From the NCBI GenBank assembly GCA_037447655.1, contig JBBHKE010000723.1:78300-142299 (forward strand): a stretch of 64,000 nt of DNA, written 5' to 3'. Below the pieces are notes generated by a model that made no database searches, was not told the DNA's origin, and saw only the letters and a list, made by a program, of their open reading frames with translations. Position numbers and translations under genes: made by a program. The DNA comes from Zygnema cylindricum (lineage: Eukaryota; Streptophyta; Zygnematophyceae; Zygnematales; Zygnemataceae). This document shows, piece by piece, positions 9,240-64,000 of the stretch; the first letter of the stretch is position 1, and each line of letters starts with the position of its first letter.

Positions 9240-9244
9240 AATAG

Positions 9245-16129: not shown

Positions 16130-16424
16130 AATGTGTGCCGGAAACGCAAACGGGCCAGGTGTCAAGCGTGCCTGAGAAACATAAGAGAAGGGCCCACCGC
16201 CAAAAATAGAGTGCGTTCGGGTCCTAGAAACCGGGAGGTTTAGGGGAGATGTCCAAGAAGGTGTGCATAGAGGACTTGCAATCCACCCTAAATGCTTATG
16301 CGGTTCCGGATGCGTGACCATGCCCTTCTCTGTCCCTCCCTTCCCCGAAAATCTGCATAGGTAATAATGAGGGAGCGAGTGAAAAGAAGAAAAAGTACCC
16401 TGTACCCCCCCAAATCCCCCCCCC
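16130..16424 (-). repeat. Gypsy-P LTR fragment (reverse copy)
   Basis: Reverse complement of the LTR start at about 20985-21230, with matching blocks such as gtgcatagaggacttgcaat and gcggttccggatgcgtgacc. It lies directly downstream, on the minus strand, of the polypurine hairpin and the PHD-like region. Confidence 0.75.
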
Positions 16425-16450
16425 CCTCTTAGTCTCGCGTGACTAAGAGG
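16425..16450 (-). other. Hairpin preceding the Gypsy-P polypurine tract (reverse copy)
   Basis: CCTCTTAGTC and GACTAAGAGG form a perfect 10-bp stem with a 6-base loop, followed on the minus strand by a long G run. The same structure is at 20952-20977. It may guide RNA processing or the plus-strand primer; this is inferred. Confidence 0.7.
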
Positions 16451-17169
16451 TTAAGACAAATTAGCCGCCAAATTCGTAGTCCCCACAGAACCACGGATTT
16501 GCGGTTTGAGAGCGGGACTCCCAAGTTGGAGGCAAACATAAGTCATGTCACCCTTGATGAGAGCGATCACACATCGACATGAGGCCAAGCAAAGAAAGAC
16601 ACAATGCAGGGAGAGGAACACGAGGTGGATCTGCAAAGTAAGTGAGGTGGAAAGTGGGTTCATCCTCTAGCCCTCGTAGATGGTAAGGAGCCACATTGAT
16701 CTGGTTCTCCTTAATTTTGCGGCCATCTTTTCTTTTTAAACGCAAAACCCCTTTAATAGAGACCTCCACTACTTTCAAATAACTTGTCTAGCTGAAATGT
16801 CCAAAGTGTCATTCTTTTGTTGCATGCTATACACGAAATCCCCGAGCATAAATCGTCGTTGCCGGGGACATAATTGTCGCTCTTGCGTTGGGAATACCAA
16901 AGTTGATCCTTGTGCTGAGCAACTTGTAAATTTCCCATAGCCAGAGGCATTTCCCGGTGAAATACCTTGGCCCAGTCGGCAATCAGCTTCTCCACAGTCC
17001 CCTGGTTGTCCATCTCCGGAAGTACAACCGCCTGAGCCGATGCAGCTCCAAGAAGGATGGGATGTCGGCCGAAAAGAATGAAGTAAAAGCTATAGGAATG
17101 GAGGGAGGCCTGCCTACTGAATCTGTATCCTATGGCAATCCAAGGCACCCGTTTGTCCCATTCCCCTAA
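16451..17169 (-). pseudogene. Gypsy-P integrase C-terminus with degraded PHD-like finger
   Basis: On the minus strand the frame gives MPWIAIGYRFSRQASLHSYS and FILFGRHPIL, a typical Gypsy integrase C-terminal segment. It is followed by KDGRKIKENQINVAPYHLRG and then a PHD-like tail in which CDRSHQG ends at a stop and later NPWFCGDYEFGG has lost one Cys. The intact equivalent is at 20663-20941. Several frameshifts and stops are present. The upstream part of the gene continues at 18171 beyond the solo LTR. Confidence 0.75.
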
Positions 17170-18170
17170 TGCAATTCTGTGTCCTCCATTGGACTACAGA
17201 ATACAGGAAGCCTCTAGATAGTATTTAACTAACCCACTTTTAAGCCACGACCACTTCTGCCTAAGAAGGCAAACTGACAATTTGACTGCACCACTGTGTA
17301 GCTTGGACTCCCCTGAGTCCGTAGCAAAAAGAATCACTGAAAACGACCAACCAGGCGATAAGTTATAATCGGCAAAAATGCCAATTTACACAAAGCTCTC
17401 TTAGAGAGAGATGTCTATCTACCAAATATTTCCTAAGTCCTAAATCCCTCTCACAACCCCTATCTACTAAAGTACGAACCAATCGTATTATTGTAAAGTA
17501 CAGAAAGGTACTATGGCCGATGTACTTTCTGTACGGCCGGTGTACGACAAGGCTCTTGAGTGGACGCGTGTCATTTTTCCACTTGTCCATATTTCCTCTG
17601 GAATTCCCGTGACCGAATGTTATCCTTCCACGCAGCGCCACGTCATGCCACGTCCATAAAATCCAAAGTGACCATTCCGCGATCTCGGCGACGACGTGCG
17701 CCGTCGGATTAAATCTGACATTAAATGTCGACCGTTCAAAGTGTCTGTTTCATTTGTTTCGTGCGAAATGGCGTTCGCACTAAACCTTAACAAGTTCTAT
17801 GTTCGTTTCGTTTCATATTCCAGTTAAATCATTTCGGTACTATACAACAGTTTATATATGAATGAAACCCTACAGTATCTAAAGGACTTCTACGACAGAC
17901 TGGTTAGAGCTAACGGCTACGCCGCGCTCTACCGGTCGGGGGTTCGAGTCCTGCCGGACTCAACCTTTTGTTTAGAGTGACTTAAGTCACTCTTTAGTCC
18001 TTCCTATGGAGCTGAGGCAGCCATGGCTCCATCGCTCTCTCTCTCCTTCAGTGACTACAACAAGTATGTGGGAGAGAGAGAAGAGATGGAGGCAGGCTGC
18101 CATCATTTCTTATATATGTTTCCGCTAATTTATTTTAAACTAGAGAATACAAAAACTACTTATTTCAACA
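17170..18170 (-). mobile_element. Solo LTR S1 (Copia group), in Gypsy-P integrase
   Basis: Read on the minus strand it runs TGTTGAAATAAGTAG to CAGAATTGCA. It is flanked by the 5-bp duplication CCTAA (17165-17169 and 18171-18175). No internal region is present, so it is a product of LTR-LTR recombination. It holds the best tRNA-like segment (17884-17962), a GTAC palindrome and the paired hairpins (about 17285-17325). Confidence 0.92.
17884..17962 (+). other. tRNA-like segment with canonical box B in solo LTR S1
   Basis: CAGACTGGTTAGAGC resembles the D-arm and box A of tRNAs such as Asn and Ile. GGTTCGAGTCC (17940-17950) is a perfect box B. A small anticodon-arm-like hairpin (GGC TAC GCC) lies between. 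The acceptor strands do not pair, so this is tRNA-like rather than a tRNA gene. It is antisense to the LTR's own transcription. Confidence 0.65.
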
Positions 18171-18560
18171 CCTAAATCCTCTTCCACACCATATTTCTAT
18201 AATAATTGCTTCAGTGTCAGTATGCACTTTTTGGCCAAACCGTCGGCTTACGGGTGGTCTCGGCTGGTCAACCGGTGGTCAATGAGGCACTTCTCTAGAA
18301 GGTTAGAAAATTCTCGGCAAACTCGGACCCCTGATCAGTCAAAACTTTGGTCGGTGCTCCAAATTGGGACTGCACCCTCTGCAAGAATGCATCCGCGATT
18401 GCTTTAGATTCCTTCGGAGGGAGAACCACCTGTTCGATCCACTTGGAGAAGTGCTCAATCATTACCAATACAAAACAGCTTCCCCTCCGGCTGGTGGGAA
18501 GTGGTCCCAGTAGATCTAATGACCATCTGTAAAACATCCCCCGGATAGGGAGGGAGTGAA
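18171..18560 (-). pseudogene. Gypsy-P integrase catalytic core
   Basis: The minus strand shows WSLDLLGPLPTSRRGSCFV with the first catalytic Asp and KVLTDQGSEFAENF with the second, the Gypsy integrase core. It follows the HHCC region at 18562-19285 and breaks near 18295, then meets the solo LTR. Integrase would insert the cDNA in the nucleus; this copy is fragmentary. Confidence 0.82.
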
Positions 18561-18561
18561 G

Positions 18562-19285
18562 TTAAGTTCCACCCTTTTTGTCAAAATCAGCTTTCACTTG
18601 GTCATAGGAAGTACACGTATGCACCACACGATTGACTTGGGCGTGCAACCCATGCCACCAATATGACCCTGTGACTAGTGAGGTGGTGTGTTTATGTCCG
18701 AAGTGCGCGCATTGCTTAAGAAGACGAACAATGAGGGTTTCGCGATTTTCCGGAGGAGGAACTACTTTCCTCGTACCATCCGCCCATTTTCTGAGAAGAA
18801 TGCCTCGGTCCCATTCATACGCCGCCATCCGAGTATGAACACGGGACAAGTGAATTCCGGCCAGGTGGGGAAGAGGGTAACCTTTCTGGATAGACCCAAG
18901 GGAATCGGGGTCATTCCAAATATCCTTGCGGCCGGCTCCAATGGGAGCCTCCCCCTCTACGTTTGCATCAAAAGTTAACAGTTCCCCTTCAGCTCGAGGG
19001 AACCAAGTAAAGGCAAAGGAAGCCCTGATAAGTCCCAAGCTGAGCACGGGGTCTTCATCGTGGCGCGCCCCTGTAGAGTCTTTGGTGGAAGGGTCAGGAT
19101 TCCTGTTGAGTCCATTTGCATTCCCATGGATCTCCCCGGCTCGGTGGATAATGTTGAAGTCGTATTCCTGCAAGATGAGAACCCATTTGGCCAGCTTGCT
19201 GGTCAACTTACTTTTCCCCATTATCCATTTGAGGGGCAGGTGATCTGTATTAAGAGCGTAGCGTACTCCATAGAGGTAAGGCATG
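18562..19285 (-). pseudogene. Gypsy-P RNase H end and integrase zinc-binding domain
   Basis: On the minus strand the frame reads TDHLPLKWIMGKSKLTSKLA and QEYDFNIIHRAGEIHGNANG, the hallmark end of Gypsy RNase H and its connector. Next comes the HHCC-type motif with CAHFGHKHTTSLVTGSYWWH and VHTCTSYDQVK, where one Cys is replaced. The apparent start of the frame (MEPIEF) comes from the adjoining LTR at 19286 and is not Gypsy sequence. Confidence 0.85.
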
Positions 19286-20455: not shown

Positions 20456-20941
20456 TTCCCTATCCTTGTGCCTCTCTTATCTGTGCATGCATTCCTGTTG
20501 GGAGGGATAAGGTCAGCAGTGGGCATTATCATTATTATGGGAAGCATTCGCATTGGTGGGTTCTTTGCAGGACGCCGAGACCGGCCATTCCGGGCAGCGG
20601 GCCCTTCCCTTATGTTTCTCTGGCACGCTCAATAGGAGGTCTCAAACAAACGGGTTCGTACCTTGGAAGGGAAGGATGGCCGCAAAATTAAAGAAAATCA
20701 GATCAATGTGGCCCCTTGCCATCTGCGAGGGTTAGAGGATGAACCCACTTTCCACCTTACTTATTTTGCAGACCCTCCAGCCTGTTCCTCTACCTGCCAT
20801 GTGTCCTCCGTACCCTACCTCCTGTTGGTGTGTGAACGCTGTCACCAGGGGTGGCATGACTGCTGCCTACCTTTGAATTGGGAGCCACGCTCTGAACGCG
20901 CAAATCCGTGGTTCTGTGGGGACTGCGAGTTTGGCGGCTAA
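20456..20941 (+). pseudogene. Gypsy-P integrase tail ending in a PHD-like zinc finger
   Basis: The frame at 20663-20941 reads KDGRKIKENQINVAPCHLRG and then a C4HC3-type finger: CSSTC, CERCHQGWHDCC and NPWFCGDCEFGG, and stops at 20939-20941. The spacing and the WH..C and W.C..C pattern are those of a PHD finger, which in host proteins reads histone H3 tails. In an element it could direct integration, as chromodomains do. Only the last part of the gene survives, joined to the chimeric LTR. Confidence 0.75.
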
Positions 20942-20951
20942 TCTGTCTAAT

Positions 20952-20977
20952 CCTCTTAGTCACGTGGGACTAAGAGG
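20952..20977 (+). other. Hairpin before the Gypsy-P polypurine tract
   Basis: CCTCTTAGTC (20952-20961) pairs perfectly with GACTAAGAGG (20968-20977); the loop contains part of a CACGTG palindrome. An 11-G run and then a 10-G run follow, serving as a purine tract. Confidence 0.75.
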
Positions 20978-20984
20978 GGGGGGG

Positions 20985-22390
20985 GGAAATCTAGGGGGGG
21001 GGGTACAGAGCACCTTTCTTTTCCACTCCATTCCTCCTTACTATCTATGCATATCCCTGGGGGGGGGGGGGTAATGAACAGAGATGGGCATTATCACGGA
21101 TCCAAGGGAGCATCAGCATTTCGGGTGGATTGCAAGTTTCTCATGCACACCTCCTTGGATATATAACCTGGACCTCTCGGTTACCAGGCACGCTCGACAG
21201 CTGTCAAGCGCGTGTGCATCTTCGGCACATTTGCACTCCCAGGTTCCGGGGCTTCATTCCACTTTGTACGGACTCTAGCGTATGGAGAAGGAAGAGGACA
21301 ATCAGCCGGATCAGATCTTTCTATTTTCATCCTGGAACACTACGCAATTTAGTTCACCTTAAACGGAGGTCGAACTGAGGAGTTAGTCCGGTGCAAAGTG
21401 TCTGATCCATTATAGTGTGTGTTCTATGTAGCTCTAGTAGAGGGATACCTTAGAGAACGACACGTAACATTTGGGATTATCCGGTAGATCTTACTGTTAG
21501 CTGTCAGTATGATGTTAGTTCAGGCCCAACCACCGGGCAAAGCATTTATGACGTTGGGACAAAGTTAGGCGGTTTCACGTCGAGTCAAAACTTTGTTTCA
21601 TTTTGTGTGTGATACAAGGACCCTCGGCCGCTAATCCAGCCGGGACCAGTCGTCTAATTTTTAGCCCTGAGTGTAGTACAGTCTGTTTTGTCTTATGTCA
21701 ATACGATAACAATTGCTGGCCGCTGATTGGCTTGTCACATTGCTTTGACTTTGGAACTTGCAGTAGGACAAACTCTGGTTGTATAAGGCACTTGGGGCCG
21801 AAGGAGACAGGGGGCTTTTTCAGTACTGTCTCCTGAGAAAACCCCCAGAGAATTAAATCAATCTTTTTGTTGGAGAACGGTTGCATTGTGTCGTTGACTC
21901 TATTGCCATCTTTGTTTTGGATTGTCTTTTGTGGAGACCGTAGCACGGGTGGGTAGTTGGCACTATCTCCTCTTTGGGCGGTTTGGACTTTCGCTGTTTG
22001 AAACTAAGAAGAGTCTTGTCGGATCCTTGCGGTGGAACCGGGAGGGTTGAGGGAGACTCATACCTGACTTCGGGGCCATTGGGAGAGGTTTTCTTCTGCT
22101 GAGTTTGGTCATCGTTGCACTCCGGGGTATGTGAATTCGCTTCACCATTATCATTCATTTCTATCTTTAATTCCATTCTCTGGGGCAAGGTGATATTGTT
22201 TAATCTGAAAAGCCGATATTTGTTATTTCTATATTTCTGCGTGGGAGTTATTTGCACACTCTTGTGGTCATCTTTGGGTTTGTCCGGAGTTTTGCGGAAA
22301 GGATCGGACGACTCTCATTTCCTTCCTATTCTTTGGAGAGTAGCTGGGAGTGTGGCATTTCGTGGGCTTCCAGCGGAGTAGCACAAAATC
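20985..22390 (+). repeat. Gypsy-P 3' LTR (approximate ends)
   Basis: It lies downstream of the purine tract and matches in reverse 2015-2783 plus 9245-9900, and 16130-16424. It is about 1.4 kb, GC-moderate, with long G runs near 20978, 21000 and 21059. The two sites used by Copia-1 and MITE-2 in the other copy are unoccupied here. Reading frames inside it are not coding. Confidence 0.7.
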
Positions 22391-22597
22391 TAAGGGGGGG
22401 TACAGGGCACCTTTCTTTTCCACTCCATTCCTCCTTACTATCTATGCATATCCCTTGGGGGGGGGTAATGAACAGAGATGGGCATTATCACAGATCCAAG
22501 GGAGCATCAGCATTTGGGGTGGATTGCAGGTTTCTCATGCACACCTCCTTGGACATATAACCTGGACCTCCCGGTTACCAGGCACGCTCGACAAAAG
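22385..22597 (+). repeat. Second partial Gypsy-P LTR start
   Basis: From aaaatctaaggggggg to caggcacgctcgac it repeats the beginning of the LTR at about 20990-21205, so a second LTR begins here and is cut off at 22597, where Copia-4 integrase sequence starts. This is a rearrangement junction. Confidence 0.7.
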
Positions 22598-32070: not shown

Positions 32071-32090
32071 AAGGAAGTAGACTAGAAAAT

Positions 32091-32098
32091 AAGGGGAG
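32091..32098 (+). other. Polypurine tract, Copia-2 unit 1
   Basis: AAGGGGAG before LTR2; also at 35287-35294 and 38483-38490. Confidence 0.88.
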
Positions 32099-35266: not shown

Positions 35267-35294
35267 AAGGAAGTAGACTAGAAAATAAGGGGAG

Positions 35295-36604: not shown

Positions 36605-38462
36605 GGTTATGGGCCCACCATCTAGGGTGCCTATGTTCGATGGAACAGACTTCACTTATTGGGAGTTTACGATGGAGGGATTACTTTTCGAAAAGCACTT
36701 GTGGGGAATTGTTTCGAGACAAGTGAGGTGTCCGCCACCGGGCTTTGGAGGAGATCACTATGGAGAATCATCTGGGGCTGCCCAGAAAACCAACCGGAGT
36801 TCAGGTGCAACGGAAGGTGAAGAGGAGATCATTACCGTGGAAGGGGAAATAGGGGAGAAGGATAAAGGGACACCTATGGTGAGGGGAGCTAGGCTCTCGC
36901 CTACGGTTCCACTTGTGGGGGTTATAACTGAACCAAAAACTGAAGAAAATGATAGAAAAATTTGGGAATATAAAAACACTATAGCAAAACATCTCATACT
37001 TAGATATGTGTCTAAGTCTATAGCTATCACTCTTTTAAATCTAACCAAGTCGTCTGAAATTTGGGACACACTAATTCAGATTTATAAGAGTGAGACTATA
37101 CAGAGGCAGTAGTTAGTAAGACAAGAGATAGAGGCCTATGTTTATAAAGGCGGTAGCATGATAGAGTTTTGCAATGATATTGCTGGGTTATATGTTGAGC
37201 TTGCTAGTACAAGATATGTAGAATCTGAGGAGAGAAAGATTAATACACTAATCATAAAGCTTCCATATGAGTACGAAGACATCATTTACCGTATGCAGGG
37301 AATGGATGTCTCCTCGTGGACTTGGAGCATTACCATGGGAATAATTCTTGTGAGAGAAAGCACTTTGGAGCTTCGTAGGGGAAGTGAAAGGGTGACTGCA
37401 TTTACAGCTGGTGGTGACTGGCGGAAGCGTGATGTGAGGAACGGCGGTGACGAGCGGAAGCGTGATGAAAGGAAGAAGGACAAAGGTAAACCTTATCGGA
37501 ACTTCGGTGGAAAGAGAGGGAGAGGAAAAGAAAGGGGAGCTTTGAAACAAGGGGTTTGCTTCGCTTGTAGGAAACCGGGTCACTATATGGAGGAGTGTCC
37601 TCGTTTGGAAGAACTTAGAAGTTGGAGTGTGAATGAGGAGGAAGAAGGGGAAGAGGAGAAAGAGGATGAAAAAATCTTGGAGCTTCTTCACATCGGTAGA
37701 ATGGAGAAGAGAGAAAAGTACACACAAATTCCACGAAGGCAACAGTGTGCTTTTGGAGGTATAAGGGAAGTAAAGAGAGAGGAGGTACTTGAGGATGTCG
37801 AGGAGTGTAAAGTGTATGACTTAGAAATGAGAAAGTCAATTCTAGGATCCATAAGTGAAAACGGGAAAAATAAAATTAATGAGGATAATATTATAGGTAT
37901 TTTGGAATTAGAAAACTGGTCGGAAAGGGAGACTTCAACGGATTTCGAGGAAAGGGGAGAAGTGAAACTAGAAGGGGTTTTAAAGGATAAGGGAGAAGAG
38001 GAATATTTAATGAAAGGTTTAGGGGAGGATAAATATTTATTGGGAATAAATTTAGAAAGTGAGAGTGGAAAGAAATCCATGGGAGAGAGTGAGGAAAGTT
38101 CATGTTTTGGGGGTAATGGGTTTGACATCACTAAAGGGAGTGATGACATTTATGAAGGTGTGCCTGTAAAAGGGTTAGCCTCAGGATGTGTGTTGCAGAT
38201 TGGAGATGGGGCTGGCTGTTTGAATTGCAAGAGGGAAATCGAATTTAGTGTGGATGGAAAAGAGGTGAGGTGGATAAAAACTTTGCTCGGATTTATAATA
38301 AGTGGGATGCTAAATGAAATGTGTGATGCAATTATTATTTCATTTCATCTAATGCATTGTTTTAAATACGAGAGCATATTTCTTAAGTTATATAAAAGGA
38401 AAAAGAAAAGAAAAAGGAAAAAGGGGAGGGAGTGTTTTGTTTATTTTGTTTGTAATAGTTGA
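36585..38462 (+). CDS. gag: Copia-2 gag fused to RT/RNase H relic, unit 3 (one in-frame TAG)
   Basis: Same protein as units 1 and 2, with the TAG at 37110-37112. Confidence 0.75.
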
Positions 38463-38490
38463 AAGGAAGTAGACTAGAAAATAAGGGGAG

Positions 38491-49066: not shown

Positions 49067-49360
49067 AATATAAGACTTTTTCTCCTTAACAAATCCTTTA
49101 AAAATGATCAAAAAATGAGAAATCAATAAGACATTGAAAGTAAGTTAGTACAAATTCGATTTTCAATTTCCTAAATATTTATGCAGAAAGGTAAAAAATT
49201 CCCCACAAATTTACAATAGCAAAATTGAAAGCTCTCACAGGTAAGATTCAATCATAAATTTTCCAACAGCAAAATTGAGAAACTCTCAATGGTAACAATT
49301 CGGGCCTCAACTTTAAACATATAGCATTTTCTTCAGGGAATTATGCGTAATGCTGTTACA
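49067..49360 (-). repeat. Putative Gypsy-C 5' LTR
   Basis: On the minus strand it begins TGTAACAGCATTACG at 49360, like the chromovirus LTR start at 704. The inner boundary is set only by the possible primer site. The segment includes an imperfect repeat of agcaaaattgaaagctctca-like units. The element sits directly against Gypsy-M gag. Confidence 0.45.
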
Positions 49361-50498
49361 GTTGAGACTCCTCCAAAACAGCTAGTGAGGCAACCCTCTC
49401 CTCCACCTCCACCTGTCTTTTCTTCCGAATTTCCCAACTTTGTCCGAGGCTGCCAGATCTAGGGCCGCGGAGAAGGTGGAGAGACAGACATTATCCCCTA
49501 AATCACATAGGAAGGGTTTAGCACATAAAGAAGTGGTCTCGGTCACCCTCCCGAAGTAGGACGCCATACGAGATCTAAGGCTCCGATAGCGGAGATGTAT
49601 ATGGATCTTGAAATTTTGGCAGATCCTAACCGGCCAGGTCGCAAAGAAATCTTAGCATTTCACAATCTCCATGAGTTGAAGGTTAAGAAGGAGTTGGTGC
49701 AGCGGGTAGCCAGGTTAGACCGAGCCAAGATCGTATGACTAGAGGGAGCTGTAGTGAAAATATTGAGCAGTTCATCAGAGTGTGACTCTTCAACTTCTGT
49801 CCGAAAACAACAAGAGATACCATCAACTTCGCACCGGTATCCTCCCCAATCTCTGAAAATTGCAACCAGTGGACCGTCTAAGGGAAGGGCAACCTCAAGG
49901 GACCGGGCCGGGGAAGGAACCAGTAAGCAGGGGTTACTAGAGCCCAAGAGAGTGCACCGGTTCAATCATCGAGACAACAAGGGCAGATTCGCTCCTTGAC
50001 CTAAAAATGAGTCGTTCTTCCCTTCCTCCTCAGTGTCTCCAAGCGCCCTGTCTCTATAAGTGCCAATTGTCCGATCCTCCGAAGGGTTGTGGCGTTCGAG
50101 ACTTACAAACCCCGAAGTACGAGCTAGGGGATTGCGGATCTCTCGGGTGTGGTGAGCGGCACACAAAAGCTAGTTGATATCTTGCGGTCTCAAAGTAAGG
50201 CTACGGTAGAGGCCGAACCCATCACCATAGAATGGGAGGGTAACAGGAAGTGATCCTCATCCGGGAGGCTAGACGGAGAGTAGGAGGGATCCTTAGTGGA
50301 CAGGTCGATCCCCCTCGTAGAACAGGTTCTTCTGCGGGAGGACAACCTCAGGGTCAAGTAACTCCTCTTGCAACACAAGCCTCGAGGACTCACCCAGGAC
50401 CTAGACCAGAATCTCCCCTTCAATGGGAAGGGGGGGGGGCAACAGGGCCTAACGAAGAGGGGTTGGGTGTAGATCTACTGGGTAACTTAACAGTTATT
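49361..50498 (+). pseudogene. gag: Gypsy-M gag, N-terminal part
   Basis: The frame starts abruptly at the chromovirus edge (ETPPKQLVRQPSPPPPP) and continues through several frames: RRKGLAHKEVVSV-like basic stretches, an RVARLDRAKIV helix, then SSSECDSSTSVRKQQ and NHRDNKGRFAP to a stop at 49997-49999. Another frame resumes at 50250 and is open across the S3 solo LTR, joining 51696. The low-complexity Pro/Ser-rich content fits a gag N-terminus. I recognise no conserved domain in this part. Confidence 0.55.
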
Positions 50499-51695: not shown

Positions 51696-52854
51696 TCCAT
51701 TGGGCATCCTACCTTTGTTCCTGTGGCGAGAACTTCCACTGTGGAGGCTGTGGTGAAACTACAACCCGACCAGAGATTACACATTTCTCTTCGACTGTTC
51801 ACTCCTCCCCCATCACCACCTCAAGCCTCCTCTGATTCACCATCCTTTTCTCTTGCTGCAGGCGTCCGTGGGTCCCAAGATCCGCCTATTTACCCTACAA
51901 ATACGACGTCCCCGCCTACTAACCTCCTCACAGACATTCCCCATCTTCGAGCGTCGAAAATCCTCCTCCCGAGACCTCTAGAAAGATGCCCAGGAGACAA
52001 ACGCCTTTTCATCAAAACCCCAAGTCGTCTTCGTCTCCGCCACTGTCACAAAGGCCTTTGAACAGACCTTGTCTCTACATCCCATCGGTGGAGGCACTTT
52101 TAAGAGAGAAACAATACTTTCTTAGATATAGAGCAGCTAGAAATTACACACCTCCTTTGACAGCAAGACCATCCTAAGTAGGGGGGGGATCCAAATTGTT
52201 ACACCCGGAGGAGAAACATGTTCCAATATAGAAGGGGCAGATCCCGGAGCCATTTCATCGGCTCAGTTTGATAGCCCCACCAGACCAGCCTCTTCACAGT
52301 TCACCCACCTTGTTGAGGAGGAAAAAGAAATGGGGGACATAAGGATCTTTACGGGGGATAGCTCGGGGATTGCTTTTTCTGATTTTGAACTGCTATGGAA
52401 ATCCTTCACGCACTCCGAAATTAACAAATAGAGGGGAGGTGCCATCTCAGGGGATTTTGAGACCACTCTTTTTCCTATGATGGTAAACTATCTAGCCGGA
52501 GGAGCTTTGGCCGACTATATGGAGCGTCAACCGTCTTTGATGGCTCCTAGCATCAAAATCTCAAATCCTGCGCTTAACGCTGAAGCCCTTGACGCAGCCG
52601 CCGACCTAGCTGCCGTCGCAGGAGTCCGTGTTACCGCCACTTTCATTATGGACATGAAACTGCAGGCCCAAGGTAGAGCTTATGTTAACCATCTGCAAGC
52701 CGTACAGGCCGTTGAGGCAGCTACCCGGATGGTGGCCAACCGAACTCTTTGCACCACTCTTCTGGCCGCCTGGAGACTCCTTTATACCGAAAGGAACAAA
52801 ACTCCAATCAAGGAATTTATGGAATTCCGATGTTTGAAAAGTGAAACCCCGTAG
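51696..52854 (+). pseudogene. gag: Gypsy-M gag, capsid part
   Basis: After the S3 insertion a frame continues to 52061 (Pro/Ser-rich). Another frame from about 52187 gives DIRIFTGDSSGIAFSDFELL, then a TAG at 52429-52431, then MMVNYLAGGALADYMERQPS and LLAAWRLLYTERNKTPIKEF up to a stop at 52852-52854. The helical, Ala/Leu-rich composition and position before zinc knuckles mark it as capsid. Confidence 0.65.
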
Positions 52855-53683
52855 ACGGTGTTCAACCGCCTCTCGAGCCTCTTTCAGAAAACTAAGTTGT
52901 CTACCATTGACACACCAGCCATATCCACGTAATATTATGTCGCTATTCGGAATTCGTTCGGACCAACAGGAAACACAACTCTTGACAATTGGAGTGTCAG
53001 TCAGGCAATCCACGACAGGAATCCCACGACGCAAGAAATCTCATTGGTTGCAATGAAGTTATATGATCATTTTGTAAACAACGAGGCCAGAGAAAAAGAT
53101 GTTACCGGCAAAACGCGAGACAATTTTGCAGGTTTCACGAGGGAATCCTCTCTTAACCAAGAGGAACAAACAGATTTTCAAGCTTTGCGAAAGCTTAAGG
53201 GGAAACAAGAAGTTGAGATCAGATCTGAACCTGCAATGGGTGCGGATGAAAATGTTTACCTGTACAACTACCTGAACTGCAACTAAACCAATCACGGGTG
53301 GAAACAATGCCTCAAGAAGCTATCAGAAGAACTCGGAACTTACTATCAAGCAAAAAGAGTTTGAGAAAGAACGTGCAGAAAGACTCCGGAAGCAGTAGGA
53401 ACGCAAGCAGGGAGGAGGGGAATAGTACCGCATGTCGGTCACTAAAGAAACTTATAAACCTACTCCCCGCTCCGAAACTGCTAAAATAACTCATTCCCAC
53501 TTAAGACAAATCAGACTTCCTAAATTTGATGATGCTCAGATCTCTAATGAGTTAAGAGGGAAGTACACCACCGAGGGGTCAAAATGTGAGGCTTGTGGGT
53601 TCATGGGCCATAAGGAAGGCCAATGTCTCCGGAAGAATGGGGTCCCAAAAGAAATGATGCAATATGCTTTGTTCACACGTTAG
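52855..53683 (+). pseudogene. gag: Gypsy-M gag, C-terminal part with zinc knuckles
   Basis: Frames include FNRLSSLFQKTKLSTIDTPA-like sequence and MKLYDHFVNNEAREKDVTGK, then a damaged knuckle (CN stop TNHGWKQC near 53280-53310). In another frame, CEACGFMGHKEGQC (53588-53630) is a complete CX2CX4HX4C knuckle. This nucleocapsid part would bind element RNA. The frame stops at 53681-53683. Confidence 0.75.
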
Positions 53684-54733
53684 GGGGAAACAACCGTTAA
53701 TCCTCCGCCATTGCAACTTTTGTATCTTTGGGGACGTCAATCTCCAGATGAACTGGGATCAAGTAACATGACGCCGAAACACATCATTCAGCGACAAAAC
53801 ACTCAATTGGCTGCCATGGCAGCAAAATTGGCCGCTCTCCGCTTGGGATCGAAGGCCCGCACACCTCCACCTCTAACGCACGCTCAAAAACTGCATAAAC
53901 AGAAACAAGAACGGCTACGAAAGCTACCGGAGCCAGAACAGCAACCCACGGTGGTTGGAGATGATGATGACCTCATGGGTTGGGATATGGAGCCTCCAAA
54001 GGCTCATCATGCTCGGACATTTCTGTCCGGAGCCAGAAACGTCGGAGTCTGGGACAATTGCAGGCAACTCCGCTCTACCACGTCTGCACAGAGAAAGGAC
54101 ATACAACCGTTGGACCGAAAGGACCACAGCCGCAAAGCCACTGGTCCTTTATCCTTCACACCGCGAGCTGTCTTGTTGAATAGTGACATTGGGCTGGGCC
54201 TAAAACCGACCCATCCGCCTCCTCCGGCTCCAAAGAAACTTCCTCCCGGTTTTGAGGGTTACAAGAAACCACAGCCGGAAAAAGATGCTTCAACCACTGA
54301 AACAGATCACGAATGGTTCGACCGATACTTGGCTGAAAGACCAACAGAAGATCCACCAATTACACCTCCAACATGTAACTCTAATGCAAAAGATGAAGAA
54401 GTAAGGGGGGGGGAACACGAAAAATCGCAAGACGAGGACTCACCCATTTCATCGCCCAATCCTCACCCTCCTTCTTCCAAACCGACAGTTATGTTATTAC
54501 GACACCTGATGCCCTACAACTTGACCCACGTCAAAATGCTAGCTTCCTCCCAAAATTTGACCGAAAAAAACCTCATTCAAGCACTAGGGGAAGAGATTCA
54601 CACCAGAAGGGAAAGGGTCACGTTGGTAGAACCACTAAAGATAGTCTTAATGTTGGCAAAACCGAAAAATTCTATAGCGAATAGAGATTATAAGGCCCTG
54701 TCGGTGGCTCCTATTGTTGGCTCCTATTGTTAA
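53684..54733 (+). pseudogene. Gypsy-M gag-pol linker region
   Basis: A 340-codon open frame (53711-54733), charged and proline-rich, with QLAAMAAKLAALRLGSK, KLPPGFEGYKKPQPEKD and an acidic stretch DEEVRGGEHEKSQDEDS. It lies between the knuckle and the protease. I recognise no enzymatic domain. It may be a spacer of the polyprotein. Confidence 0.5.
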
Positions 54734-55295
54734 CAGGACAGGTAATTTTAAACTTAATGGATACGGCCGGTATCAAGATGTAGTAGTGGATACTAGAGCC
54801 CTCCTTAACCTCATAACCAACTCAGCATTAGAGAAAATGCCCGAGGAAATCATGCGAAAAATCAGTCCTAGTGAAATATGCCTGAGTGCGGTCAGTATTG
54901 GGAGCCAACCAGTATATGGCATCATTAAAGCAATGGAAATCAAATTCGCGGATGACGCAGGCGAACACGTACAAATTCAGCTCCCCTTCCTCGTGGTGGA
55001 AGGTAAGTAATTTGAAATAATGCTGGGTATGGCTACGTGGACAAGGTTGAACATAGAGTAAAGCATGTGGAAGGGCTAAGTTATAGTTTCAGACCAGGAA
55101 GATCCCGAGGGCACCAAAGTGGTAGGCCCCTTGGATTTATGGAACCGGGGGAAAACGACTATTTCTGTGGCTGGATGCTATCCGGTGTTCTCAGCATCCA
55201 CCCCTTCAAAGTTATTCAAAGATTCCACTGATATCGCGAATTCCATCTAGCAATTCCCCATTTCCAAGCGGTGGGAGAGGGAGTATCAAAATAGA
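54714..55295 (+). pseudogene. Gypsy-M aspartic protease-like region
   Basis: The frame to 55010 reads GRYQDVVVDTRALLNLITNS, where the catalytic DSG/DTG triplet is now DTR, so the Gly is lost. LPFLVVEGK fits the later beta strand, and after the stop FEIMLGMATWTRLN resembles the closing ILGxxxL segment. Inactive. Confidence 0.65.
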
Positions 55296-56440
55296 TTGGT
55301 ACAGACGACCACCCTTCTAGGGGGAGTGGACAGAAGCTTTGAAGCCATATCATCCCGGACAGCAAGGTTTATCCGGCCCGAACTCCCAACGGTTCCTAAC
55401 CCAGAGAAGGACTTCAACCGAGAAGTGGTGTCACTGGAAATCCCGCCGTCAAGACTTCGGATTCTCTCGCTATTCTTCGGCATCAGTTTTGACCTGGAAG
55501 CAGTCCTGATAGCTGGATATTAAGTAGAAATGTACTCGGCAGTCGAGATTCACCCAGACGCCTGTGCAGTTAGTGAGTATCGACTGCAACAGCTGCACCA
55601 ACTTTACCCACAACAACTCCCAGTGTCCCCCATGTCTAACTCTCACCGTACGCTGTCTCACCGTACGCTTCCCCAAAATGTCGACAATATCACGGATTCA
55701 CATTTGGAGATGCTTGGAACGGTAGACCTGGTGATTGCTGGATGGCCTTGCCAGGGGTATTCGTTAGCGGGATAGGGCAGGGGACACCAGGATGTCCGTA
55801 GCAGAACATTTTTTCAAATGACTCGACTGATAACAGGGTTACAGGACACAACAGTGGGGTATGTGTTGGAAAATGTTCACCCCACAGATGATATAAGGAA
55901 ACAGGTAGTCAACACCTCGAACCAAGTGACCAAGGTTCTGGGGACTCACATTGTGCTTGATGTAACTCACGTCGGATCGAGAGCCCACCGAGTTTGGGCT
56001 TATTGGAACAACTTCGCTCCACCTCCCGTCCTCCAACAACTGTTGAAAACACAAGTCCCGGATCCCAACATCACAGTTCAACAAATTCTCCGATCTGGGC
56101 GAATGGCCACCTTGTGACCACAGCCGACCGAACACCCTTTTTCGGTTGTAATAAACCCGCGTATCCACGAAGGGCCCTATCGACACTAGTATCTTTCCTT
56201 AATATCCATGCTTACTGGGAAGGCGCACCAGGAATGATCTTTGACACTACGACCGCTAGTTGGACGACACCATGTCTTGAGGAATAGGAACAAGCAATGC
56301 TATTTCAACCGGCAACCACAGCAGCACCAGGGGTCTCGGCCTCAAAAAGGTGCAATTTAATCGAGCAAAGTATGGATTTGAATGCAATTTCATGGGTGCT
56401 ACAACATTCTCTGGCATTCTCCAGCCTTCAGTCTTCAAAG
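55296..56440 (+). pseudogene. Cytosine-5 DNA methyltransferase domain inside Gypsy-M pol
   Basis: One frame, broken by TAA (55521-55523) and TAG (55773-55775), shows motif I (LRILSLFFGISFDLEAVLIA) and VEIHPDACAVSEYRL. The catalytic motif IV follows (DLVIAGWPCQGYSLAG, Cys codon 55749-55751), then FFQMTRLI, motif VI ENV (55869-55877) and SRAHRVWAYW. After a frameshift near 56112 another frame carries NIHAYWEGAPGMIFDTTT, a TAG at 56285-56287 and LIEQSMDLNAISWVL (motif X-like). Motifs are in DNMT order. The SRAHR and ENV contexts recall the DNMT3/DRM type. It sits between protease and RT of the retroelement. It would add methyl groups to cytosines; this copy is broken. Confidence 0.88.
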
Positions 56441-56831
56441 TCACCGTCAAAATACCTTCAAGCTCCACAGTTGTTGGCCATGCAAGCAACTCTACAGCTT
56501 GAGGGGGGAAGAGAGGCAAGAAGGGAAAAAATCAACAAATTACATTCAAAGAAAACATTTAACCCATGATTTTCCTCAATGGGGGGGAGCGAATGCTTAG
56601 AACATGGCATCTTAGGGGAAGTTGTCAGTAGCGTTTTAGCAGTTGACCAAAGGACAGATCCACAGGTAGAACTGGAATTCGACATTTCATTTTGGGTAGG
56701 CAACCAGAAGCATTGGCGGCAATAGAACTCGGGAAGCAGCTGAGCAAGGGACAAATCCAGAGGTAGAACTGGAATTCGACATCTCCCTTTGGGTCGGCCA
56801 CCAGAAGCATTGGCGGATGTGAACTCGGAAG
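56441..56831 (+). pseudogene. Gypsy-M spacer with a 97-bp duplicated segment
   Basis: No domain is recognised between the methyltransferase and RT. Two copies of a segment containing ggtagaactggaattcgaca start near 56650 and 56747, 97 bp apart. They encode VELEFDIS(F/L)WVG.QKHW in different frames, because 97 is not a multiple of three. Confidence 0.6.
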
Positions 56832-57322
56832 ATGGATTGGACTTTAGTGGAACAGCTAGACCCACAGCAAAAGGCTTGGCTCTCGAAGATATTAGAGGAG
56901 AACGTGCAGGTGTTCTCCTGGTCTGACAAAGATATAGGGATCTATAAGGGGACCCTTTTTTGCATTGACCTGACCAACGAGAGGGTGACTATTTGGCAGA
57001 AACAGTACCCTCTCAGCTTCAAGGAGAAAGAGTTCATCACGGCAAAGGTAGAGACTTTGGTGGCTCGGGGTTGGTGTTGGAAAGTATATGGTTACATGGG
57101 TTTGCCTCTCTAACAGTGCTCCCGCCAAAAAAAGACTCATTAGGGAAAAAGGTAGATTTCCGGATGTGAGGGGACTATCAGATACTCAACGCGGCAACTG
57201 TCTCCGACCGTTATCCCATGCCCACCCCGGAAGAAATCTTCAACTCTCTTGTTAGGGCCAACATTTACTTCACGTTGGATATGAAAAATGGGTTCCACTA
57301 GATTGCAATGGAGCCAAAGCAC
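56832..57322 (+). pseudogene. Gypsy-M reverse transcriptase, N-terminal part
   Basis: The frame reads LEENVQVFSWSDKDIGIYKG and QYPLSFKEKEFITAKVETLV to a stop at 57113. Another frame carries VDFRM, then GDYQILNAATVSDRYPMPTP and NIYFTLDMKNGF, with the catalytic LDM motif, interrupted by TGA (57166-57168) and TAG (57299-57301). It is cut at codon 3' of MEPKH by the Copia-5 LTR. Confidence 0.83.
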
Positions 57323-57527
57323 TGTTGAAATCACTAGATTTATGGGAGATATTTTCTAGGTCTTAATTAAAATAAAAATGAAAAGCAAAGGCAGTCTGCC
57401 TCCACCTTCTCCCTCTAGCCCCCATACTTGTTGCAGTCACTGAAGAAGAGAAAGGGCGGTGGAGCCATGGTTGCCTTAGCTCCATAGGCAAGACTTAAGA
57501 GTGACATAAGTCACTCTCAACCAAAAG

Positions 57528-58330: not shown

Positions 58331-59440
58331 CTCTAGGGTGCCCATATTCAACAGATCTGGATTCATTTACTAGGAAGCTTTGATGACAGGGGCATTATGT
58401 GAGAAACGATATTGGGATATTGTTAGTGGACAAGTGAAACGTCCATCTCAAGGAACTCCACCAAGGTTTGGAGGAGTGAGGTTTTCTGCAGCAAGATCTG
58501 CTCCAACGGACGAGACAGATGATGGGGACAGCAGTGTGTCCGAAAAAGGGAAAGGAAAGGAGACACCTCTCACTCTTATTGACATGGCATCCGGAGCGGT
58601 GGCCGTGAAGACCGAGGAAAACGACATTCAGATGTGGGAGTACACGAATATGAATGCAAGGCACTTCATTCTAAGACACCTCACCAAAGCGTTGGCAACT
58701 TCTCACCTTCAAATCTTCAAGGCTGAGGAGTTGTGGATGACCTTAGTGGAGATCTATAGAGCTGGCACTATTTAGGAGCTTCAGCTGGCTGAGCAAAGGT
58801 TCATCAGTTACACTTTCAAAGGGGGAAAGATGTTGGACTATTGCACCGATCTCTCTTGTCTATACATGGAGATGGAGAGTGCCGGATTGACAGGCACTAT
58901 GAAGATGAAAGTTAGCACTCTCATCATGAAGTTTCCGGAGGAGTATGAAAATATAGTGTACCGAGTGCAACAAATGGATGATAGTGCTTGGAAGTGGAGC
59001 ACCGTGGTTCAAATGATACTCGTACAGGAAAACACTATTGAGATCCGAAGAGGAGGAAAGAGCGTACAAGCTCTAGCTGCCGGAACTGACCGATGGAGGA
59101 AGGATCCGAAGAAGCCGTACCACAGCCTCAAAGGGGAGAAAGATCAATCTGGAGAACTGAGGACTCCAAAGGGCCTTTGTCATTTCTGCAAAAAGCCGGG
59201 GCACTTTATAGCTGATTCCATCGAGCTATTGGATTTGAGGCTTCAAGAAAATCGTGGAGGTGGTTCTTCCGGAGGAAAGAAGAAAGCACTTGTGGTCACA
59301 CGAGTGAAAGGAGAGACTGAGGAGGACGAGTCCTCCGAGGAGGAGGATGGGGAGCTTCTTCTTGACGAGAATCTAGAGGAGAAGGAGATCCCTCAAAAAC
59401 AGAAGTGTGCCCTTGGAGCCATTCGGGAAGCACCAGAGGA
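58331..59440 (+). pseudogene. gag: Copia-5 gag
   Basis: The expected start is ATA (58296) instead of ATG. The frame continues with MMTGALCEKRYWDIVSGQVK and has a TAG at 58773-58775 at a Gln position. It resumes with MLDYCTDLSCLYMEMESAGL and carries the knuckle CHFCKKPGHFIADS near 59180, in which the last Cys is replaced by Ser. An acidic linker leads to the protease in the same frame (58830-60389). Confidence 0.86.
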
Positions 59441-59760
59441 GGGATGGATCATCGACTCAGGTGCATCCATGCATATGTGTCGTGACAGGCACCTCTTCAC
59501 TAAGCTAAGAAAGATCCCTACTGTGGAAATAGAGTATGGGGATGGGAGAGTAGTTACCACAGATCTAGTGGGATCGGTAGATCTGAAAGTCTTAGTGGAG
59601 GGTAAGACTTCTATTCTCACCTTCTCAGATGTGCTCTACATTCCTCAGTTGAGTAAGAATCTTGTGTCTACTTCTGTATTAGATGACAAGGATTTTGATA
59701 CCTTCACTAGAAAGGGAGTCTTTACAGCTAAGTATGGAGATGAAGTCTACTTCACAGCTG
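59441..59760 (+). pseudogene. Copia-5 protease
   Basis: GWIIDSGASMHMCRDRHLF shows an intact DSG catalytic motif and FSDVLYIPQLSKNLVSTSVL ends the domain, in frame with gag and integrase. Confidence 0.86.
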
Positions 59761-61020
59761 ATAAGGGTAGCCAAGGAATGTTTAGGCTTAACCTGAGTAA
59801 TGAAAAGAGTGTTCTCTACTCGTGTGCAAGTGAGATGATGCTTTGGCACAAAAGGTTGGGGCATGTGCATCTAGATAGATTAAAGAAAATGAAGAAAAAT
59901 GGAATAGTGGAGGGTATTAATTTTGAGGATGATGAGACCTTTGATGATTGTAGTGGATGTGCCCAAGGGAAGATTCATAAACTTCCATTTCCAAAGGCAA
60001 CCACATATAGGAGAGAGAAAGTATTGGATCTAATTCACACTGATGTTTGGGGACCTGCTAGATATGTTTCACATGGGGGGAAGAGGTGGATGTTAACTAT
60101 CACAGATGATTGGTCTAGATACACGAAGGTATACTTTCTCAGACATAAGTCAGAGGTATTGAGATGTTTCAAAGAGTATAAAGTATGGAGTGAAAAACTA
60201 CACGAAACCTCAATAAAAGAGATAAGAAGTGATAATGGGAAAGAATACACCTCAAGGGAATTTGAAGAATATCTTAAAGAAGAAGGAATTCATCACGAGA
60301 AAACTGTTCCCTATAATGCGGAACAAAATGGAGTAGCAGAAAGAGTGATTAGAACTTTAGGGAGATATGTCCAGAAGTATGTTAACTGATAAGAGGATAG
60401 GGTTGCAGTTTTGGGCGGAGTGTATGAACTATGCTAATTTCATCAAAAATAGAGTTCTAACTTCAGCAAATAAGGAGGAAACTCCGTATGAGAGGTGGAC
60501 AAGAAGAAAGCTTGATTTGTCTAGTTTGATAGTGTTTGGAAATCAAGTCTACAGTTTGGATTCTAATAAGACTAAATGGAAGTTAGAGGGGAGAGGGAAG
60601 CCAGGATATCTTGTAGGATATGATGAGAGCACAAAAGGATACCGAGTGTATGACTTGAAAAAGAAAGATATAATTTTGGTAAAACACATAGTGGTGATGA
60701 ATGAAGAGATGTCCATTGATCCATTCAAATATAATAAGGAAGTCAAAATCAGATTTGAAACGGATCAGTTTTCTGACTTTGACTTTGAAAATGAAGAGAA
60801 GGAAGAGGGAGAAAAAGAAAAATCTGCAGATTTACCAAAGGAGAAGGAGGAAAGGACAACATCCAAGGCAACACCACAATACGAAGTGGAAACCGAAGAG
60901 GAACTTGATGAGACACCGGAATTGGAAGATAGGGGAGCTGAAAATCTCCCTAAACGAAACCCAAGGATGCCTTCCGACCGGCGTCCGATTTTGAAGGGGG
61001 AAGAAGAAAGTAGTAAACGA
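59761..61020 (+). pseudogene. Copia-5 integrase
   Basis: It is intact from WHKRLGHVHLDRLKKMKK and CSGCAQGKIH through HTDVWGP, TDDWSRYTKVYFL and SDNGKEYTSREFEEYL to AEQNGVAERVIRTLG. A frameshift near 60360-60370 follows. The next frame (60367) carries FWAECMNYANFIKNRVL, GKPGYLVGYDESTKGYRVYD and an acidic linker. All three catalytic acidic residues are present in the first frame, making this the best-kept integrase core in the window. Confidence 0.88.
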
Positions 61021-62657
61021 CTTCAAGAAAGAGAAGTAAATAACCAACTCACAAAGATGTCTCACCCATATGAACCTCAGACATACTTAGAGGCCATAAA
61101 CACTCCAGAAAGTAGCCGGTGGATCACAGCTATAAATGAAGAAATGGCCTCTATCATGGAAGCCAATACATGGGAGTTGGTAGATTGTCCACCGGACCGA
61201 AAACCGATCGGATGTAAGTGGGTTTTTAAACTTAAATTAAACCCGGATAATACCATTGAGAGGTACAAAGCTAGGTTAGTTGCAAAAGGATATACTCAGA
61301 AAGAGGGGATAGACTATGAAGAAACCTTTGCACCTGTTGTCGGATTTCCTTCTGTTAGAATCCTTTTAAGTATACCCGCAGCGGAGGATATGGAAATCCA
61401 CCAGATGGATATTAAAATGACATTTTTGCACGGAGAGTTGGAAAAAGAAATTTACATGAGGCAACCGGAAGGATTCGTGGAAAGTGGGGAAGAAAACAAA
61501 GTTTGCAAACTAATAAAATCACTCTATGGGCTTAAGCAAGCCCCGTGACAGTGGAATATAAAGCTCGACGAATTTTGACCGGTTTGGGGTATATCATAAT
61601 TAGTTCAGATCACTCCATATATTTATTTGAGGATGAGGATGGAGTGATATTTATTGCTATTTATGTGGATGATTTGTTGGTCTTAAGCAAGTCATTAGAT
61701 AAAATTATCAAACTAAAACGGGATCTTACAAGCCGCTTTGACATGAAAGATCTCGGTGAAGCAAAGTACACTTTGGGAATTCAAATGGAGAGAGATAGAG
61801 GGAATAGGATTATTTGACTCGCTCAGAAAGAAGCAATTGGTAATATGCTAGAAAAATTTCAAATGGAGAAAGCAAACGGATGTATTACTCCTATGGATTT
61901 GAAGAAAGTGAGTGAGGGGAGTGAAGAGGGAGGAATATTGATCATAAATGATGAGATAGATGAGATAGAAAGAAGATTTACGGAAAATATCCCTTATCGG
62001 CAGATTGTAGGCAGTTTAATATATTTTATGAATTGTACCCAGCCGGATATAGCTGCAGCCGTAGGAGTCCTCAGCAAGAGTCTAAATGAACCAAAAAAGA
62101 GAGACTGGGAGGACGCCAAAAGGGTGATGAGGTATCTGGTGGGGACAAGGGAATTGTGGTTGCATTTGGGAGGGGAGCACACTGACATCACAAACTGGAG
62201 TGATGCCAGTTATGGAGATGTGCCTTTAAGGCGGTGTACGACTGGATATGTGTTGCAAATTGGATCTGGTGCATGCTGTTGGAGTAGCAAGCAACAGAAA
62301 GTAGTCGCTTAGTCTACTATGGAGGTTGAATACATGGCTTCTTGTGCTGCTACCAAAGAATTAATGTGGGTGAAATCTCTTCTTGAAAAACTTGGGTTCA
62401 TGAAGACAGGAACTCAGAATGTTTTTTGTGATAATCAAGCTGCTATCTCTATTTCAGCTAATCCGAAATTTCACTTCAAAGCTAAGCATATGGATATTAG
62501 ACCAAGCTTTGTCAGAGAGAAGGTTGAAAATAAAATCATTAAATTGGTTCATAAAACTGATAAAGATATGATTGCAGACATGATGACAAAACCAGTACCT
62601 TCCCCTAAGTTGATTTATTGTAGAGAAAACTGTGGATTAAAATTGAAAAGTGACTAA
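61021..62657 (+). pseudogene. Copia-5 reverse transcriptase and RNase H
   Basis: RT runs from [20 protein letters not shown] through [20 protein letters not shown] and MDIKMTFLHGELEKEIYMRQ to KSLYGLKQAP, then TGA at 61546-61548. A frameshift follows, and IYVDDLLVLSKSLDKI near 61660 keeps the catalytic box. TGA occurs at 61815-61817 and TAG at 62310-62312. RNase H has WSDASYGDVPLRRCTTGYV, CDNQAAISIS and HFKAKHMDI and ends with DMMTKPVPSPKLIYCRENCG before the stop at 62655-62657. Confidence 0.88.
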
Positions 62658-63568: not shown

Positions 63569-64000
63569 TAGGGATTTATAATGGGACCCCTTTTCGCATT
63601 AACTTGACCGATGAGACGGCGACCGCTTGGCAAAAACATACCCTCACAGCTTCAAGGAGAAGAAGTTCATCACCGCAAAGGTGCAAACTTTGGTGGACGC
63701 GGGGCTAGTGCTGGAAAGTACAGGGCTACATGGGTTTACCTCTCCAACATTGCTACCGCCAAAGAAAGACTCATCCGTAAAAACTGTAGATTTTCGGATG
63801 TGTGGGGACTATCAGATGCTCAACGCGGCAACTGTCTCTGACCGTTATCCTATGCTTACCTCGGAAGAGATCTTCGACTCTCTTGCTAGGGCCATCATTT
63901 ACTCTACGTTGGATATGAAGAATGGGTTCCATCTGATTGCAATGGAGCCAAAACACTGAGAGAGGACCGTTTTTTGGGCTGGATCTAGGTTGTATGATTT
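63569..64000 (+). pseudogene. Second Gypsy-M-type reverse transcriptase (partial)
   Basis: It starts at the point equivalent to 56937 of the other copy. A frame from 63627 reads HSFKEKKFITAKVQTLVDAG, KTVDFRMCGDYQMLNAATVS and IYSTLDMKNGFHLIAMEPKH, meeting TGA at 63957-63959; ERTVFWAGSRLYDF continues in frame to the window end. It is better preserved than the copy at 56832-57322 and shows the sequence expected there beyond the Copia-5 insertion point. Confidence 0.85.

Follow-up and report, generated by a model that had tools for sequence, protein, structure and literature searches.

Chromoviruses are Ty3/Gypsy elements whose integrase is followed by a chromodomain, and PAT/DIRS-type elements are built on split direct repeats in the layout A1-coding-B1-A2-B2. 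Retrotransposons with a Dnmt3 inside Pol have been described from Klebsormidium nitens (KnitGypsy-Dnmt3) and from Symbiodinium (SymbioDIRS-Dnmt3) (PMC5890265), and the available text of another paper, with reference to de Mendoza, assigns some DNMT3s to the retrotransposons 'LTR Copia and DIRS' (PMC12344493). KnitGypsy-Dnmt3 combines Gypsy domains and a Dnmt3 of canonical motif order with DIRS-like split repeats, according to the legend of Fig. 4c; its Ka/Ks lies below 0.2, indicating purifying selection, and de Mendoza et al. interpret the K. nitens element as acquired within its host lineage, and SymbioDIRS-Dnmt3 as an unrelated acquisition (PMC5890265). In yeast, two SymbioDIRS copies methylate CG and the KnitGypsy-Dnmt3 domain gave no methylation; since DNMT3B failed as well, the authors regard this negative assay as inconclusive (PMC5890265). 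In the literature searched, mostly outside subscription papers, KnitGypsy was found by name in PMC5890265 alone, and a search for a PHD finger in such elements returned only one endogenous-retrovirus paper.

Here we describe retrotransposons of Zygnema cylindricum in which the replication protein of a jumping gene carries a DNA-methylating enzyme of the type that cells use to silence such elements. They belong to the KnitGypsy-Dnmt3 kind, having a Dnmt3 in a Gypsy Pol and DIRS-like repeats as in families F1 and F2 described below. They differ from it in that far more copies were scored here than the 'fewer copies' of the paper imply for K. nitens, in that two or more families are present, one of them with GluCysGln in motif IV, and in that a PHD finger is present, whereas the available text on KnitGypsy-Dnmt3 contains no mention of 'PHD', which a figure may show (PMC5890265). 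SymbioDIRS-Dnmt3 shares the Dnmt3 inside Pol and the split repeats but has a tyrosine recombinase where an rve integrase is found here (PMC5890265). The repeat layout is likewise shared with PAT/DIRS-type elements, whereas the integrase here is of the DDE type (rve) and a tyrosine recombinase was not found in the two pol ORFs scanned. As in chromoviruses, a chromatin reader follows the integrase; here it is a PHD finger, and a methyltransferase is carried as well. Figures and supplements apart, the PHD reader, the GluCysGln sister family and the wider host range are undescribed in the literature searched.

The methyltransferase of the window copy

The window, the whole stretch of 64,000 nucleotides that was analysed, contains the main body of a dead F1 Gypsy copy, from gag-like sequence to reverse transcriptase (RT), at 52237..57322 (+; 80-82% identity to the natural C1374 copy in blastn), and a 5' internal part of the same copy at 49355..50474 (+; 75-78% identity). 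A sequence-only reading had proposed that a cytosine-5 DNA methyltransferase (DNMT) is embedded here between the protease and the RT of a Gypsy element, and its coordinates proved correct to within about 150 bases. Reading positions 54700-57400 in three frames gives first a protease-like stretch, then a methyltransferase and finally an RT. Upstream of the methyltransferase lie a zinc-knuckle-like CEACGFMGHKEGQC at the gag end (53585..53629, +; read from the sequence) and the protease-like region (54702..55007, +), in which VVDTRALLNLI (54783-54815) has DTR where relatives have DTG. The N-terminal part of the RT follows at 56856..57322 (+), where it is cut, and matches with 71-81% identity in two pieces (56856-57062 and 57071-57322; tblastn).

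Between these, positions 55449..56395 (+) are confirmed, on motifs, profile match and identity to the F1 relative L013, as a decayed methyltransferase of apparent DNMT3 type, in support of the proposal. Motif I LSLFFGI (55464-55484), motif IV GWPCQGYS with the catalytic Cys (55740..55763), motif VI LENVHP (55866-55883) and motif VIII SRAHRVWAYWNN (55977-56012) were read in the window, and motif IX PRRALSTLVSF (56165-56197) and motif X QSMDLNAISW (56366-56395) in a shared neighbouring frame, all on the + strand. The profile search that the sequence-only reading had called for matched PF00145 to 55527-55772 (E 4.5e-4; at 20.2 bits slightly short of the 22-bit cut-off), while the other five of the six window pieces, protease and RT included, gave no Pfam match. 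In tblastn the window is 78% identical to L013 across 224 aligned residues (55449-56111), with two in-frame stops. Since the matching ORFs of the relatives L013, L014, L017 and L025 score 44-52 bits with PF00145, a chance match is not a reasonable account. The window copy itself is a dead pseudogene, with stops, a frame change after about 56112, DTR in the protease and a match that ends at 57322.

Copies in the genome

The 352.8-Mb assembly (2689 contigs) was searched with the PF00145 profile, giving 123 matches, all above the cut-off (123 scored of 782 candidates), with the F1 DNMT (361 aa of L013), giving 114 matches that are 100 to 62% identical (113 scored of 1905 candidates), and with the F1 RT, giving 90 matches (89 scored of 4572 candidates). 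Only the best candidates were scored, and the F1 copy numbers are therefore lower bounds. When the 89 RT places were paired with 113 of the 114 F1 DNMT places and 20 places chosen from the PF00145 search, a listed DNMT match lay 222-916 bp upstream of the RT in 48 of them. All ten places fetched from the other 41 also have DNMT sequence just upstream of the RT; four keep most of the domain and six only its C-terminal part (one through a run of N), among them L043 with only the last stretch. The sequence-only reading had raised the possibility that other copies lack the domain; in the part of the family looked at, the 48 of 89 and the ten of ten fetched hold it at least partly, so that none of these 58 RT places is without DNMT sequence. 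The DNMT of the window copy is thus not a one-copy capture, and the family is large. One exceptionally long open frame among the tabulated F1 RT matches proved to be a run of N and was discarded as an artefact. Two further copies, L014 (contig C412) and L025 (C1100), form a third DNMT subfamily near F1, with about 50-57% identity, in which motif VIII reads SRAFRLRSYWTN in place of SRAHRVRAYWTN.

Coding order and split repeats

In intact relatives the order is protease, DNMT, RT, RNaseH, integrase and PHD finger. The 2395-aa ORF of L017 (F2) has Pfam matches to a zinc knuckle and a protease, both below the cut-off, followed by DNA_methylase (2e-11), RVT_1, RNaseH, Integrase_H2C2, rve and PHD (1.5e-9). 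The 1525-aa ORF of L013 (F1) has DNA_methylase (2.2e-11), RVT_1, RNaseH, H2C2, rve and a PHD match that, at 2.4e-4 and 21.5 bits, lies below the 24-bit cut-off and is counted against the explanation preferred below. The F1 protease occupies a separate ORF just upstream (L011:4977-5813; Asp_protease_2, 2.1e-4, below cut-off). Before it stands a 716-aa ORF of L011 that ends in a zinc-knuckle-like CEAC...C; it matched no Pfam family, and the gag of F1 is for this reason a putative one. All eight zinc ligands (Cys/His) of the PHD finger are invariant in seven copies, and the PHD profile finds the PHD fingers of KMT2C, KDM5/Lid, BAZ2 and ATXR5. Both L013 and L017 have the Ty3/Gypsy order RT-RNaseH-integrase (H2C2, rve), and in Pfam scans their pol ORFs gave rve and Integrase_H2C2 and no match to phage integrase, the tyrosine recombinase by which DIRS elements are recognised. 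F1 is a large family of Ty3/Gypsy-type retrotransposons with the order gag, PR, DNMT3, RT, RNaseH, integrase, PHD finger.

The repeats follow another plan. In the C1344 copy (F2), a 931-bp repeat A at the element start recurs, 100% identical, near the end, and a 243-bp repeat B (99.6%) stands before and after this second A, giving the layout A1-coding-B1-GC-A2-B2. The same complete LTR at both ends together with a target-site duplication, by which Ty3/Gypsy elements are recognised, was not found, the repeats of C1344 being split. A guanine tract before or at the start of repeat B resembles a polypurine primer. The palindrome GACAGCTGTC marks the B/A joint, with both repeats confirmed, in the window (21196), L012, L015 and L017, and the same decamer is present, as a decamer match alone, in L021, L023, L025 and L028. 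If B followed by A is taken as an ordinary LTR, the inserted element would correspond to a two-LTR circle opened at the B/A palindrome. C1344 is flanked by a 4-bp TTGG duplication, the single case on which target-site duplication rests. None was found at C1374 and C1042, and the first A of C1042 matches the reference at only 84%, where the second reaches 98%, so these two copies may be rearranged. C1344 and C1407 have 6.57 kb in common at 99.92% identity, with different 5' sequence; this identity, together with that of A1 and A2 in C1344, makes recent activity of the element likely.

Affinity to DNMT3 and variants of motif IV

For the identity of METHYLTRANSFERASE, a single-sequence PDB search put DNMT3A at the top (3.9e-13), with HhaI at 2e-5 and DRM2 at 1.8e-3. 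A profile of eight copies likewise scored best with DNMT3A (4.4e-18) and DNMT3B (5.9e-16), HaeIII, HhaI, DRM2, DNMT2 and DNMT1 scoring 5.4e-8, 4.2e-7, 7e-7, 2.9e-6 and 0.13. For the predicted fold (pLDDT 75.8, pTM 0.81), all 50 matches listed are DNMT3A/B/C entries. Judged against solved structures, the DNMT therefore appears closest to DNMT3 in both sequence and predicted fold. In the alignment, motifs I, IV, VI, VIII, IX and X stand in the canonical cytosine-5 order, and because of this order the domain is not a DRM; a DRM origin was rejected on this and on the DRM2 scores, which lie far under those of DNMT3A. Of the DNMT3/DRM-like contexts that the sequence-only reading had pointed to, the DNMT3 side thus stood, on motif order, sequence rank and predicted fold, and the DRM side did not, since the rearranged order was not found. 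Direct capture of a bacterial methylase is not favoured, given the profile scores of HhaI and HaeIII against that of DNMT3A. The catalytic domain is alike to those of DNMT3A and DNMT3B at only about 25% identity, and it is carried by a retrotransposon. None of the ADD and PWWP companions of animal DNMT3s stands beside the DNMT in the ORFs scanned with Pfam; these are not required for membership, since protist and algal DNMT3s lacking companion domains are reported (PMC12344493, available text).

The catalytic Cys of motif IV is kept in 144 of the 148 aligned DNMT domains with letters at that place; P0006, which reads PYQ, is counted against the explanation preferred below. F1 rows have GWPCQ, whereas GWECQ stands in six of the eight F2 rows, GSECQ in a seventh, and ECQ preceded by a stop in the last. 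Two or more families are present in this genome, F2 having GluCysGln instead of ProCysGln. Across the alignment, distant domains included, WPCQ was found in 82 of 156 and WECQ or FECQ in 46 of 156, the GluCysGln form occurring in F2, in Closterium and in the type II proteins described below.

Selection on the DNMT and the RT

The dN/dS comparison that had been suggested for the DNMT and RT regions was run with NG86 on natural frames with stop codons skipped, omega being estimable at dS above 0.05; NG86 is crude, pairs share sequences and some copies have stops, and the tables cover copies other than the window copy, L014 and L025. No DNMT or RT pair above this dS threshold reached an omega of 1. 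In F1 it was 0.06-0.49 for the DNMT (median 0.13; 10 copies, 23 of 45 pairs estimable), 0.02-0.69 for RT-RNaseH (median 0.09; 8 copies, 17 of 28 pairs) and 0.05-0.40 for the integrase (six of six pairs). Between F1 subfamilies dS of the DNMT is mostly saturated and its dN is 0.15-0.21, against 0.04-0.09 for RT-RNaseH. In F2, omega was 0.11-0.55 for the DNMT (8 copies, 4 of 28 pairs estimable) and 0.07 in both estimable RT pairs (2 of 28), the L026 row of the RT table being another Gypsy element with no estimable omega. On these comparisons the DNMT is constrained, though more loosely than the RT, and its omega, below 1 throughout, is not always below the 0.2 published for Ka/Ks in K. nitens. 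The L023/L027 RT pair gave an omega of 1.44 at a dS of 0.003, which is under the threshold and uncounted. An exchange of modules between these two copies, considered because dS is 0.18 in the DNMT and 0.003 in the RT, proved mostly a frame effect, and recombination is not claimed; the copies are 98.6% identical across 8.9 kb, with nucleotide identity of 96-97% in the DNMT and 98-100% elsewhere.

Relatives in other genomes

Protein searches with the DNMT part (45 matches), the DNMT profile (68) and the RT part (best 120 of 1344) together gave 230 proteins, and an RT match was found in 150 of those 230 proteins plus three own ORFs. Type I, with the DNMT before the RT, accounts for 34 of the 150 (two of them own; PHD in 13), and type II, with the DNMT between RNaseH and integrase, for 39 (PHD in 31). 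A further 60 are RT-first, with the RT within the first 450 residues and the DNMT absent from the ORF (PHD in 42), 13 are long ORFs without DNMT (PHD in 6), and 4 are of other build. The DNMT of RT-first elements may lie in a separate upstream ORF, since Marchantia polymorpha has, besides the type I proteins P0163 and P0184, four proteins with a DNMT and no RT (P0003, P0007, P0014 and P0019). In K. nitens, P0035 is of type I and P0150, P0180 and P0218 are RT-first, P0218 with a PHD finger. Relatives also occur in Closterium NIES-53, NIES-54 and NIES-64. In the chlorophyte Haematococcus lacustris, P0189 and P0190 have the DNMT in the type II position, though their gene models contain only pieces of it and lack the middle of the domain; no DNMT was found in P0170. 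Carriers of the host's silencing enzyme are not confined to one charophyte and dinoflagellates: another green genome harbours many such elements, diverse in kind and under selection, and related ones occur in Closterium and a liverwort and, with a second layout, also in a chlorophyte.

Trees of the DNMT and of the RT, made from the 24 proteins with both, each split type I (7) from type II (17), with support 100/98 and 100/100, showing that the two domains were inherited together at this depth; the DNMT tree carried a warning of two long branches meeting within type I. P0035, the putative published KnitGypsy-Dnmt3, falls in type I in both (100/98 for DNMT, 100/100 for RT), which points to shared descent of the present elements with the K. 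nitens element. In a DNMT tree of 46 rows, a single branch (98) unites the type II with the DNMT-INT rows. For 135 of the 150 RTs, a FastTree drawn with midpoint rooting has 33 type II rows in one clade of 35 and 29 type I rows in a clade of 75 (support 88) together with 44 RT-first rows; the third group, 25 rows that include Cordylochernes, Cydia, Osmia and one Haematococcus protein, yielded no DNMT. Three DNMT-less long ORFs stand inside the DNMT clades, one with a weak 14-bit remnant, and may be losses. The Closterium proteins form an RT clade of their own, from which F1 and F2 are absent.

These trees are consistent with a single capture of the DNMT, and transfer between hosts is also compatible with them. 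The spread over green hosts argues for something older than an acquisition in the K. nitens lineage, or for mobility between hosts. It is conceivable, as a tentative reading that we hold with some doubt, that an old lineage of split-direct-repeat elements with a DDE integrase, now in Haematococcus, Klebsormidium, Closterium, Marchantia and this genome, captured a DNMT3 once and inherited it with the RT as a writer beside a PHD reader, that the DNMT moved once within Pol (before the RT, or between RNaseH and integrase), and that the GluCysGln form in several branches still methylates. If this is true, the picture of a recent capture by the K. nitens lineage would give way to that of an ancient element that methylates itself.

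Possible role of the DNMT

Chance capture of a host gene by the window copy alone, or a chance match of motifs, might be suspected since this copy is broken and borderline in Pfam; it is next to impossible and is refuted by the recurrence of the domain at this position in each of the 58 copies shown and in other species. The best explanation, to which we give an even chance, is that the DNMT3 carried by Pol methylates the element's own cDNA and that the PHD finger tethers the integrase to chromatin. The activity of the enzyme, its timing and its benefit would, as far as can be read from sequence, be as follows. The protease would cut the polyprotein; the DNMT3 would act in or next to the reverse-transcription complex and methylate the new double-stranded cDNA de novo before integration; and the PHD finger, attached to the integrase, would bind the histone H3 tail and tether or steer integration. 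The copy would enter chromatin already marked, and would so avoid recognition as naked foreign DNA or limit harm at the site. The sequence-only reading had likewise proposed that the element may use methylation to mask itself or survive silencing. The domain order in the natural ORFs of L017 and L013, the DNMT standing beside the RT, its affinity to DNMT3A, the kept Cys, the omega values, the PHD ligands and the agreement of the trees on the deep split support this explanation. The CG methylation seen in yeast also speaks for it, although the two relatives in question are SymbioDIRS copies. Against it count the negative yeast assay of the K. nitens domain, the F2 family without the Pro of motif IV, and the DNMT-free Gypsy and Copia elements that thrive. 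CG observed/expected is 0.62-0.68 in F1, 0.89-0.94 in F2 and 0.64-0.86 in other window DNA; a consistent CpG depletion, as a sign of self-methylation, is thus not seen across F1 and F2 relative to other window DNA, and this too is counted against it.

Some of the same observations would fit a DNMT retained for a structural or nucleic-acid-binding role in Pol, as a module that grips cDNA or an RNA-DNA hybrid and whose methylation chemistry is weak or lost. GluCysGln in F2 and many relatives (the 46 of 156 aligned domains), a DNMT dN between F1 subfamilies about two to four times that of the RT, and the yeast result for K. nitens (PMC5890265, available text) speak for such a module, which we nevertheless consider unlikely, as the DNMT is under purifying selection, most aligned rows retain motifs I, VI and VIII and the Cys of motif IV, and rows that extend far enough retain IX and X. 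Quite unlikely, in our view, is a DNMT whose target is host chromatin in trans, whether at integration sites or at host genes, and whose effect would be a change in host silencing instead of a mark on the cDNA. The PHD finger, showing that the element touches chromatin, and the effects on the Symbiodinium methylome discussed by de Mendoza et al. would agree with it, but the methylome of K. nitens, a host of this kind of element, is plant-like and ordinary (PMC5890265, available text). With a Pol that joins writer and reader, and with ProCysGln and GluCysGln families in one genome, the question of why a transposon methylates DNA becomes directly testable.

Other sequences in the window

Behind the cut in the RT of the F1 copy lies a Copia-type element (58380..62657, +; ORFs, assigned by eye), followed by an RT fragment at 63569..63997 (+). 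The fragment was rejected as the other half of a copy split by the Copia element; the two RT pieces overlap in element coordinates, and the second therefore belongs to another F1 copy. Sequence matches to F1 further identified parts of RNaseH, integrase and PHD of another copy at 16223..19282 (-) and the 3' end of a further copy at 20635..22594 (+), with the PHD finger, B1, GC, A2 and B2. In the latter, B1 (20998..21199, +) and B2 (22395..22594, +) both end in CGACA, the palindromic joint lies at 21196..21205 (no strand), and A2 (21202..22385, +) is 95% identical to A1 of C1374. By eye, no recognisable host gene was found among the 22 stop-to-stop frames of at least 180 aa in the whole window, which looks like nested transposons. 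The F1 repeats A and B also survive as diverged remnants (75-86%) at 2104-2783 and 9240-9903 (-), and positions 28901-38488 hold a tandem array of three 3196-bp units, mutually 99.9% identical, with Copia-like gag frames. Elsewhere in the genome, LHC genes gave 88 matches, which mark the host as green and likely a streptophyte, whereas a RuBisCO large subunit was not found. By whole-sequence score one LHC protein matched the multi-repeat chain 9vfj_2 first, followed by 8htu and 7xqp, two moss structures, along its full length. Contigs C519, C2590, C1116 and C610, C1077, C889 carry LHC genes in clusters, as well as clustered short frames resembling LHC, which by eye may be of ELIP type.
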